Below the pieces are notes generated by a model. It searched no databases, was not told the origin of the DNA, and worked only from the letters and a program-made list of their open reading frames with translations. A stretch of DNA of 64,000 nucleotides from Bacteroidota bacterium (lineage in GTDB: Bacteria; Bacteroidota; Ignavibacteria; Kapaibacteriales; UBA2268), in contig JAJXYC010000012.1 in the NCBI GenBank assembly GCA_021780815.1, forward strand, positions 87,001-151,000, given 5' to 3'. Both the position numbers and the translations under genes were made by a program. This document shows, piece after piece, positions 4,373 through 48,949 of this stretch (position 1 is the stretch's first letter; every line of letters begins with the position of its first letter).

Positions 4373-5608
4373 TTAGCGCTGTAGTATTTCTACTTTTGAC
4401 CAGCTATTTTCGGAAATTATTGCTTTGGAAAATTCAAGAAATTCTTCAAAATTTATTAATTTCAATTTAGATATAAAATTATCATTCAATGGGTATTTCT
4501 CATTCAATTGAATTGAACGCAAAGTATTCATCATTTTTTCAAAAGGCAATTCAATTTTATAAATATGTTGAGCGACCATAGCATTTTTTGAGATATTGAA
4601 AAGGTCTTTTGAAATTTTTCTATTTTGAATCTTATTGAAAATCTCATCAATAATTTCAAAGCTTTTATCTAATTTATTTTTATCAGTTGCAAAATAAATT
4701 TGTAATACGTTAGTATCTATATATTGCTCTAAATTAGTAAAAGAATTATAAACCAGAGCAGATTTTTCACGCAATTGGTTGTAAATCATTGAACTTGGAC
4801 TTTCACCAAGAAAATAAGAAAGTAATTTCAACTTTAAAATCAAATCGGGTTCAATACTATCAATTCTTTTAAGCATTAAAATATGGGATTGCTCAATAGA
4901 TTTTTTTAATATTTTAGTTTTTGGTGTGCAATTTGGCAGTTTCTCTATTTTTTTTGGTATTGCGGCAGAAGGAAAATCAGAGAAAATTTTTGATGATAAT
5001 TCGGAAAATTGTTCAAAAGGTATATTCCCAATAAATGAAATTAAAATATTTGTTGATGTGTAATATTGATTAAAGAATTGTTTTATATCTTGCAAAGTTA
5101 TATTTTCTAATGTTTTCTCTGTGCCAGTAATTAATCTCCCCAAAGAATGCTTCGGATATATTATTTCATTACCTAAATCAAAAATAAGTTCCTCTGGGTC
5201 ATCATAATAAGATTTAATTTCTTCAAGTATGATTTTTTTCTCTTTTTCAAAATCTTTTTCGTTGAACACAGGTTTAACAAAAAAATCGGAAAGTAAAGTG
5301 TAAACTTTTGTAAAGTTTTCATTCAAAGATTTTAAGTAAAAAACTGTGATTTCGTGTTCTGTAAAAGCATTATACAAAGTTCCAGTTCTTTCGAATTCCT
5401 TTGCAATTTGAGTATTAGTATAATTTTCGTTTCTTCTAAAAAGTTGATGTTCTACAAAATGAGCAAGTCCTTCTTTTTTATTTGGGTCTTGACGAGAGCC
5501 AGCAAAGACGCTTATACTTAAAATAAACGATTTATAATTTGGCAAATGTTCATAAAGCAAACGTAATCCATTTGGCAAAACCACAAGTTTTTGATTAGAA
5601 TCTTCCAA
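4373..5608 (-). CDS. M16 family zinc metallopeptidase (insulinase/processing peptidase type)
   Basis: Zinc peptidase of family M16, 411 residues, one half-unit type. The inverted zinc motif HFVEH is at residues 50-54 (H50, E53, H54). The distal zinc ligand is probably E130 in LEEIKSYYDDP, at the usual 76-residue spacing. The later RQLREKSALVYNSF-like segment (QLREKSALVYNSFTNL) is the conserved substrate-side motif of the C-terminal lobe. No signal peptide is visible, so it is probably cytoplasmic, as for YmxG-like proteins. The start is a TTG at 5608 that places the family N-terminus (VVLPNGLRLLYE) correctly. It converges with ricT and ends beyond a shared terminator. The substrate is unknown. 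Confidence 0.88.
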   Translation of the reverse strand: MEDSNQKLVVLPNGLRLLYEHLPNYKSFILSISVFAGSRQDPNKKEGLAHFVEHQLFRRNENYTNTQIAKEFERTGTLYNAFTEHEITVFYLKSLNENFTKVYTLLSDFFVKPVFNEKDFEKEKKIILEEIKSYYDDPEELIFDLGNEIIYPKHSLGRLITGTEKTLENITLQDIKQFFNQYYTSTNILISFIGNIPFEQFSELSSKIFSDFPSAAIPKKIEKLPNCTPKTKILKKSIEQSHILMLKRIDSIEPDLILKLKLLSYFLGESPSSMIYNQLREKSALVYNSFTNLEQYIDTNVLQIYFATDKNKLDKSFEIIDEIFNKIQNRKISKDLFNISKNAMVAQHIYKIELPFEKMMNTLRSIQLNEKYPLNDNFISKLKLINFEEFLEFSKAIISENSWSKVEILQR

Positions 5609-47641: not shown

Positions 47642-47715
47642 GGGGTCGTAGTTCAGCTGGTTAGAATGCCTGCCTGTCACGCAGGAGGTCGAGAGTTCGA
47701 GTCTCTTCGGCCCCG
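47642..47715 (+). tRNA. tRNA-Asp (GTC)
   Basis: Acceptor GGGGTCG pairs with CGGCCCC (one G-T pair); anticodon loop CTGTCAC gives GTC; T loop TTCGAGT. CCA is not encoded. T-rich sequence follows. The XRE regulator gene converges on it. Confidence 0.95.
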
Positions 47716-47798
47716 CTTTTCCCTTCAAATTCTTTCAAACTAAATATTTATTCCCTAATCTAAATCTAAATTTATTAAAAATAAAATTCAATTTTATT

Positions 47799-48197
47799 TT
47801 ATTTTTTTATTTTGCCTGCCGCTACTTTTATAACTTTTGTTTTGAAAGAAAAATCTTTTGGTTCTATTTTTAACTTTTTTATTTCGGAAATTAATGTAGG
47901 ATGAACTTCTGCTCTTTTATTAATTTTATCTTTGAACTCTTTGCCTGCTTTATTATTTGCAAATATTTCTCCTTCACCCGTCAAAAGAAATATTGGACTA
48001 ATGCCTCTATAATACAACGTTATAATTAATGTTAGCGGTACACTTGTACGACCTAACTCGTAATTTAATATTTTATCTGGTGTTTCACCCAATAAAAATC
48101 CAAATTGGTCGGCTGAAAGCTTGCCCCCTTCATTAAAAATTGACCTTACTATTCTTAACCTTTCGCCAATTTCCTTATTTAATTGATTATCAACCAT
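47799..48197 (-). CDS. XRE-type helix-turn-helix regulator
   Basis: 132-residue DNA-binding protein. The N-terminal 75 residues form a Cro/C1-type HTH: IGERLRIVRSIFNEGGKLSA, then QFGFLLGETPDKILNYELG and LTLIITLYYRGISPIFLLTG. The remaining C-terminal part is charged and lysine-rich, ending VAAGKIKK. It is transcribed away from the two small genes that start at 48341. Two perfect inverted repeats in the shared region (48239-48259, 48269-48297) are its likely operators. Whether it represses, activates or does both is not known. Confidence 0.8.
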   Translation of the reverse strand: MVDNQLNKEIGERLRIVRSIFNEGGKLSADQFGFLLGETPDKILNYELGRTSVPLTLIITLYYRGISPIFLLTGEGEIFANNKAGKEFKDKINKRAEVHPTLISEIKKLKIEPKDFSFKTKVIKVAAGKIKK

Positions 48198-48232
48198 AAC
48201 TAAAAATAATTTATATTTTCCGCATAATTTAC

Positions 48233-48263
48233 TTGTTAATTATGTAATTTTTACATAATTTTG
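48233..48263 (+). promoter_or_regulatory. Candidate promoter of the small-gene cassette
   Basis: TAATTTTG at 48256-48263 fits TAnnTTTG; TTG at 48233-48235 lies about 20 bases upstream. The expected start is near 48270, about 70 bases before the ATG at 48341. Confidence 0.55.
48239..48259. promoter_or_regulatory. Inverted repeat overlapping a -7 element (candidate operator 1)
   Basis: ATTATGTAA (48239-48247) and TTACATAAT (48251-48259) are perfect 9-base arms with a TTT spacer. The right arm overlaps the -7 element TAATTTTG at 48256-48263, so a bound regulator would block the promoter of the small genes. Confidence 0.6.
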
Positions 48264-48268
48264 CATTA

Positions 48269-48297
48269 AATTAATTCATTATTATTATGAATTAATT
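48269..48297. promoter_or_regulatory. Long inverted repeat (candidate operator 2)
   Basis: AATTAATTCAT (48269-48279) and ATGAATTAATT (48287-48297) are perfect 11-base arms with a seven-base AT spacer. It sits at or just after the expected transcript start of the cassette. Confidence 0.55.
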
Positions 48298-48340
48298 ACA
48301 AAATTAATAAAATCTTATAAATAAACAAAATGAGGTTGAT

Positions 48341-48634
48341 ATGAAAAACCAAATCATCGCAAAACCCAAAATAGCAGACTTTATAAGTTTCAAAATTGAG
48401 ATTCCTGCAAAGTATTTATCTGCCGATGGTGAATTGCATTATATCGTAGAAGAAGAGCAAAATGCGCTTTTCCAATATTTGCTAAATATTTTTTTTAGAA
48501 AAATTAAAAATCAAAAGTTTTTCAACAAAAATATTGTTGCTGAATTGGAATATCTTTGTGAGAGTTACTTTGATTTCAAATATAGTGAAAGTTTAGAAAG
48601 TCAAGATTTAATTGATGATTATGATAATTTTTAA
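48341..48634 (+). CDS. Small protein of the XRE/Mor cassette, unknown
   Basis: 97-residue acidic protein, family not recognised. The chain begins MKNQIIAKPKIADFISFKI. It has the segment IPAKYLSADGELHYIVEEEQ, a helical middle part, and an acidic tail (SLESQDLIDDYDNF). No membrane span or cysteine pattern is visible. GAGG sits just before the ATG. The next gene starts 15 bases downstream with its own strong site, so the two form one transcript under the palindromic control region. Confidence 0.6.
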   Translation: MKNQIIAKPKIADFISFKIEIPAKYLSADGELHYIVEEEQNALFQYLLNIFFRKIKNQKFFNKNIVAELEYLCESYFDFKYSESLESQDLIDDYDNF

Positions 48635-48649
48635 TTAATTGGAGGAAAG

Positions 48650-48949
48650 ATGAAAGATAAAATTAATTTAGTGCAGTATGAGGATTTAACGCCTGATTTG
48701 CAATTAATTGCAGATGCTTTTGATATGAATATTGTCCATTCTATGTTAAGAGAACTTTCGGGAATGTATTTGTATATTCCTAATTTATCTCGCTTGGAAA
48801 GTTTTATTTTGCGATATTTACAAGAAAACATTAACAGACCAGTTAAGCAAGTAGCATTAGAACTGGGTGTTAGCGCTCAATATCTTTGGAAACTAAAAAG
48901 AGAAAAACTAAACAAAAAAATACAATACGAAAAACGTCAAAAGAAATAA
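48650..48949 (+). CDS. Mor-like (Mu middle-operon regulator type) DNA-binding protein
   Basis: 99-residue protein. An N-terminal helical part (YEDLTPDLQLIADAFDMNIV) contains the ELSGMYLYIPNLSR block that aligns with the Mor/Martha domain of phage Mu activators. A C-terminal HTH follows: VKQVALELGVSAQYLWKLKR. The tail is strongly basic. GGAGGAAAG before the ATG is a strong binding site. Mor proteins activate phage middle promoters; here the family match is by eye. It points to phage or element origin of the cassette. Confidence 0.6.
   Translation: MKDKINLVQYEDLTPDLQLIADAFDMNIVHSMLRELSGMYLYIPNLSRLESFILRYLQENINRPVKQVALELGVSAQYLWKLKREKLNKKIQYEKRQKK

Follow-up and report, generated by a model that had tools for sequence, protein, structure and literature searches.

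A divergent XRE/Mor-like cassette in Kapabacteria as the probable switch for domesticated phage capsid genes, most likely those of a gene transfer agent

Introduction

What does a small phage-type switch control when it is found among the core genes of a bacterial chromosome? In the 64,000-nucleotide stretch of DNA analysed here (the window), a gene for an XRE regulator faces away from two small genes, the second of which resembles phage Mor activators, and a tRNA-Asp gene lies beside them. A preliminary description considered this arrangement a remnant or a minimal form of a lysogeny-type switch inside core genes, and pointed out that tRNA genes are common integration sites. A different context for such a switch is the gene transfer agent (GTA), which to our knowledge is known from only a few lineages. 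In Caulobacter crescentus the GTA activators gafYZ are repressed by the LexA-like RogA (PMC9632790, PMC11150451), whose single chain of 213 aa includes an S24-like domain devoid of key catalytic residues (PMC9632790).

Results

Layout of the cassette

The arrangement described earlier was borne out, with correct coordinates: XRE was encoded opposite ORF97 and the Mor-like gene, beside tRNA-Asp, and both perfect inverted repeats were confirmed between the divergent genes (Table 1). When the same 143 bp were resampled by a first-order Markov model, at least one comparable repeat was obtained in 5% and two in 0.4% of the resamples. The ORF97 family was fast-changing around a '(D/E)LxFL..(F/Y)' core and was missing from some genera. 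A toxin-antitoxin pair composed of XRE and ORF97 was considered and dropped, because profile searches gave no support for it.

Table 1. Features of the cassette and its neighbours (positions in the window)
Feature	Position	Strand	Description	Basis
tRNA-Asp(GTC)	47642..47716	+	neighbour, probably outside the system	
XRE (CI-type) repressor half	47799..48197	-	132 aa; helix-turn-helix domain and disordered tail; no S24 domain	
VAAG codons, residues 125-128 of XRE	47814..47825	-	LexA/CI Ala-Gly cleavage-site motif	sequence
Proposed ORF97-mor promoter	48228..48263	+	TTTACTTG (-33 side), 23 nt, TTTTG	inferred
Proposed XRE operator	48238..48260	.	AATTATGTAATTTTTACATAATT; perfect inverted repeat, 10-bp arms, 3-bp spacer	
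-7 box TAnnTTTG of the proposed ORF97-mor promoter	48256-48263	+	overlaps the proposed operator	
Second perfect inverted repeat	48269..48297	.	11-bp arms, 7-bp spacer	
ORF97	48341..48634	+	small acidic protein, 97 aa	ORF
Mor-like activator	48650..48949	+	99 aa; YIP motif and helix-turn-helix	family profile
leuC	starts 48990			

Distribution and chromosomal placement

A protein search recovered the Mor-like gene, mostly as one clear copy, from 34 of the 36 genomes of the window's family and from only 1 of 24 genomes of the same order outside it; both family genomes without the gene were members of genus g3. The named relatives were Candidatus Kapabacteria/Kapaibacterium and Ignavibacteria MAGs. 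At nearly all loci XRE was divergent from the Mor-like gene, usually with a small acidic ORF in between. Full-length matches of the XRE profile in a class-wide search were confined to the window's family, only weak matches of the helix-turn-helix type being obtained elsewhere, and XRE had no relatives among the IMG/VR contigs. Since 34 of the 36 family genomes have retained the cassette, under purifying selection, it was not a remnant inside core genes; the lysogeny-type switch of the earlier reading, in a domesticated form, remained the best interpretation.

The chromosomal neighbours of the cassette varied by genome, and leuC and a helicase gene adjoined it only in the window's genome. The preliminary description would have been contradicted by a cassette located at the same place in all relatives and by a failed Mor match; the cassette was near-universal and occupied different places, and the Mor match is dealt with below. 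In agreement with the earlier observation, neither an integrase nor an attachment repeat was seen: no integrase-size gene was present from tRNA-Asp to leuC, and no direct repeat of the tRNA-Asp 3' end was found in the region searched. The tRNA neighbour differed between genomes and was mostly absent, so that its position beside the cassette is most likely incidental. An integrated prophage or mobile island at tRNA-Asp was rejected given that there was no integrase, no attachment repeat and no constant target.

In four genomes the XRE(-S24) operon ended no more than about 150 bp from a tRNA gene (L029 Gln, L043 Val, L051 Gln and the window Asp), which was above rough expectation; tRNA type and orientation varied.

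Identity of the Mor-like protein

A profile check of the 99-residue protein against the Mor family gave a divided result. Taken alone, the window protein scored 16.4 bits, below the Pfam cut-off of 24.9 (PF08765), and no match of the Mor profile at E<=0.001 was obtained in the window's own genome. However, 17 of the 18 orthologous family members matched the profile, with a best E of 1.1e-8, and the best PDB match of the Mor-like family profile was Mu Mor (1rr7, E 0.0066). Because the orthologues matched both the Mor profile and the Mu Mor structure, it was concluded from these sequence comparisons that the Mor relationship of the second small gene is real. The protein had no relatives among the phage records searched. 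At L052, L053, L059 and L060, Mor-like proteins were encoded within prophage-like replication/packaging modules (primase/DnaB, VRR-NUC, TerL), and the domesticated Mor is likely to derive from such proteins.

XRE and a separate S24 protein

The window XRE was weak in Pfam and matched the phrog_8 regulator at 2.8e-5. In its AlphaFold2 model the DNA-binding domain was helical and well predicted, and the tail from about residue 110 was unstructured with pLDDT <50. The closest fold was the DNA-binding domain of the P22 C2 repressor, with a TM of 0.79 by target and an E of 0.054, which is below significance. Among relatives the XRE linker was variable and the tails converged on hPxxxVAAGx(I/P), for instance PVYKVAAGAP and FPILKVAAGKI; in the first family alignment the last Ala was invariant and the Gly was present in 24 of 25 proteins. 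The Ala-Gly motif was missing from the L093 XRE. In LexA, the cleavage-site region reads VAAGEP.

At none of the loci read was an S24 domain present on the XRE polypeptide. Instead, an S24 gene began at the XRE stop or a few bases from it in 15 of the 22 named loci, and the model of its product matched the UmuD' and LexA C-domains. The homologue in the window's genome was encoded on another contig (G000:C16:11231-11863, 210 aa, Pfam S24 7.7e-20), and its would-be cleavage region, IGAAKKNP, was without Ala-Gly. XRE and the separate S24 protein thus appear to constitute a split LexA/CI-type repressor, in which the S24 protein would bind the XRE tail and act by cleavage in trans or by docking.

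The Ser and Lys of the S24 dyad were retained in most S24 partners, including that of the window's genome. In the clade L089-L092 (e.g. L092:2062-2589) a Glu replaced the catalytic Ser, so cutting by S24 cannot be universal. The XRE tails of this clade kept AAG or VAG, and this retention, together with the missing catalytic residues of Caulobacter RogA (PMC9632790), argues for an S24 protein that serves purely as a docking co-repressor: with its tail in the S24 groove, XRE would be held in an active complex, and induction would occur by dissociation rather than by cleavage. Given that most lineages conserve Ser and Lys, docking as the sole function was regarded as a serious but lesser possibility.

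Other S24 genes were noticed in the window's genome. Two adjacent UmuD-like genes at L070:4277-4708 and 4798-5226 (G000:C16:318276-318707 and 318797-319225) look like a second enzyme/substrate split: the first kept an AG motif, VSAGIPLP, and had GDAK at the expected catalytic Ser, and the second had GESM and Lys without the AG motif. L069:3094-3417 encoded a stand-alone 107-aa S24 domain protein with no N-terminal part. At another locus, the XRE of L039 (G015:C493) extended beyond VAAGAP in a long tail built of AT-hook-like repeats of the RRRGRPRL type.

Operator and promoter of the cassette

The first inverted repeat was conserved, as a core TATGTAA-N3-TTACATA or a near match occurred in the intergenic regions of close relatives. 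There the palindrome immediately preceded a TTTTG consistent with the -7 box of the Bacteroidota promoter consensus, TAnnTTTG. The second repeat showed no obvious conservation in relatives. The window's genome contained one site for the full palindrome at 0 mismatch and no further site at 1, and at <=3 mismatches the palindrome had fewer sites than a reversed control pattern. Because the operator was unique in the genome, the main target of XRE is probably its own cassette, and the remaining genes would be reached via the Mor-like protein. A direct SOS regulon of XRE was ruled out by the single operator.

Dispersed capsid genes

The phage genes kept by the family in single copy were those for TerL, head protease, major head protein, cement protein, a CHAP protein and a Mu-type portal, the capsid genes being assigned by PHROG/Pfam profiles (phrog_976, phrog_1005, phrog_673 and Portal_Mu PF06074). 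TerL homologues, a few of them fragments or weaker matches, were detected in 21 of 22 family genomes in the first search and in 18 of 19 in a later one. TerL was missing from G006, only a 38% match of prophage-like grade was present in G030, and the draft G278 had XRE and no TerL match. The gene usually stood alone among core genes. Matches to the major head protein occurred in 19 of 22 genomes of the family; 14 genomes of other families gave none. In G002 the order was TerL, head protease, major head protein, cement protein, membrane protein, CHAP-like, spanin-like and Mu-type portal. The same head module, flanked by ordinary genes, was present on contig C17 of the window's genome (portal 1.3e-73, CHAP 0.001). 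A comparison of G001 with G002 gave dN/dS of 0.04-0.18 and no stops, indicating purifying selection. Packaging and head genes were therefore retained by the host lineage under selection, as is expected of a GTA.

The closest phage head protein shared 33% identity, and the head protein of the window's genome had no relatives in the IMG/VR contigs. On ORF inspection, no phage integration or replication genes were recognised near the capsid genes at the loci read, which also fits a GTA. It was judged very improbable that the capsid genes are prophage fragments, decayed or newly gained, which entered many lineages by separate insertions. Some genomes do also hold prophage-type TerL, head and Mor homologues, but these copies were clearly more distant, and the family genes were conserved single copies with a module order constant across genera, congruent distances, purifying selection and no integrase at the loci read.

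The sheath profile was negative in the window's own genome, and Phage-tail_3 and Baseplate_J were negative in relatives; with these profiles, neither a contractile nor an RcGTA-like tail was found. Undetected tail genes would suit a conserved capsid machinery with a use outside DNA transfer, for example as a tailless shell or as a lysis or anti-phage device. Such a use is quite unlikely: terminase and portal were conserved, which implies DNA packaging, and three profile searches may miss tail genes that are too divergent.

Linkage of the switch to the capsid genes

At L085 a single block held, in this order, MOR (minus strand), XRE, S24, protease, major head protein, cement, gp36-like, TM protein, CHAP and spanin-like genes. 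TerL started 7 bp after mor in L025 and its named copy L080, and lay about 7 kb from the cassette in L027. Both genomes of genus g3 were without mor, and one of them, G006, was also without TerL and the head protein, the other, G030, having only the 38% TerL match; this co-loss concerned a single genus, and the drafts varied in quality. Mor distances correlated with those of TerL, head and portal (r 0.48-0.62, Mantel p<=0.001), and XRE distances did not track capsid-gene distances in the Mantel test.

TerL and protease had a common box in their upstream regions; it approximated TTTnAAAATnn(A/C)TTTACTTT and preceded TTTTG by about 22 nt. Its likelihood ratio (LLR) was 162, against 88 in control upstream regions and 67-88 in shuffled sequences, and when one genome was left out at a time, no more than one of 31 controls outscored more than half of the 32 sites. 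Some of the Mor-operon promoters, which had not been used in training, scored high for the box (16.0, 12.9, 12.3, 11.3 and 10.8), and this hints at autoactivation. In the window's genome the scores were poor, at 4.3 bits for TerL and 1.2 bits for protease. As the box is in part a general -33 element and these two promoters scored poorly, it was treated as supportive evidence only. A non-capsid gene (200 aa) at L179:489 (G013) had a promoter box of 19.4 bits and is possibly a further member of the regulon.

A self-contained or SOS-type regulator of phage descent, with the capsid genes under other control, would account for the one strong operator in the genome, the mostly large distances between capsid genes and cassette, the weak promoter boxes of the window's genome and the negative XRE distance test. 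A single operator is, however, also expected if the repressor works through an activator, and the physical linkage at L085 and L025, the joint absence in genus g3 and the shared box with Mor co-variation make such a regulator unlikely.

Discussion

The cassette is fairly likely to govern, as its control switch, a phage capsid system that has been domesticated in Kapabacteria, and this system is most likely a GTA. The evidence was drawn from gene sets, motifs, linkage, co-loss, selection and the shared promoter box, all read at the sequence level; repression by XRE, trans cleavage or docking, binding of Mor to the box, particle production and DNA packaging are what the reading would predict. 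With no recognisable tail genes, a single co-loss and drafts of varied quality, GTA is a likely but not certain name, and 'domesticated capsid system' is the safer one. A fuller proposal, namely the first GTA of the Bacteroidota line, domesticated independently from a Mu-like phage, with dispersed genes and a LexA-type repressor divided between two proteins, a DNA-binding substrate and a trans-acting S24 peptidase, was held tentatively, at somewhat less than an even chance. In the open-licence literature, no paper was found on a Kapabacteria GTA, a Bacteroidota GTA or a split S24 repressor.

We proposed that XRE, bound to the palindromic operator over the -7 box, would keep the ORF97-mor operon off, with the S24 protein providing a peptidase-fold domain that binds the Ala-Gly tail of XRE. 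Where Ser and Lys are kept, S24 would possibly cleave this tail in trans in response to a signal, for instance DNA damage. Once XRE was lost, the Mor-like activator would accumulate and turn on the dispersed promoters of the terminase and head/lysis genes.

The closest functional parallel would be Caulobacter RogA/gafYZ, the Kapabacteria system being a separate domestication built from other parts. In both, a LexA-like repressor acts, here by proposal, on activators that switch on GTA promoters at separate loci, and both systems are domesticated and conserved in a bacterial group. Unlike in RogA, the S24 part is separate in Kapabacteria and the cleavage motif stays on XRE; the Mor-like activator is unrelated to the DnaA-IV-like GafY and to GafZ; and the capsid genes are dispersed, whereas the Caulobacter GTA has one main cluster.

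The Ala-Gly motif, the Ser-Lys S24 fold and the CI-type helix-turn-helix are shared with LexA, lambda CI and UmuD, but LexA and lambda CI are single chains and the Kapabacteria halves are on different polypeptides. The non-canonical LexA of Bacteroidetes (PMC8565304), from the same broad phylum, likewise has a CI-type DNA-binding domain, an S24 link and palindromic operators; it differs in being single-chain and in controlling DNA-repair genes. Two-protein S24-based repression is also described for Acinetobacter UmuDAb-DdrR (PMC11332147). In that pair it is the UmuD-type protein that represses, with DdrR as an unrelated corepressor. The activator has the YIP motif region and helix-turn-helix of Mu Mor and C (PF08765, 1rr7), which have a middle/late activator role, yet it is very divergent and apparently fixed in the chromosome. 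The protease, major head protein, cement protein and portal resemble those of Mu-like phage heads, but the genes are dispersed and no replication or integration genes were seen beside them.

If the proposal is true, a further independent GTA would be present in the largely uncultured Kapabacteria, which would point to a recurring pattern in which bacteria domesticate phage heads for DNA transfer and place them under LexA-like repressors. The location of cleavage site and peptidase on separate proteins would offer a natural system to test S24 action in trans, and the split repressor could show how dead S24 domains such as that of RogA still regulate.
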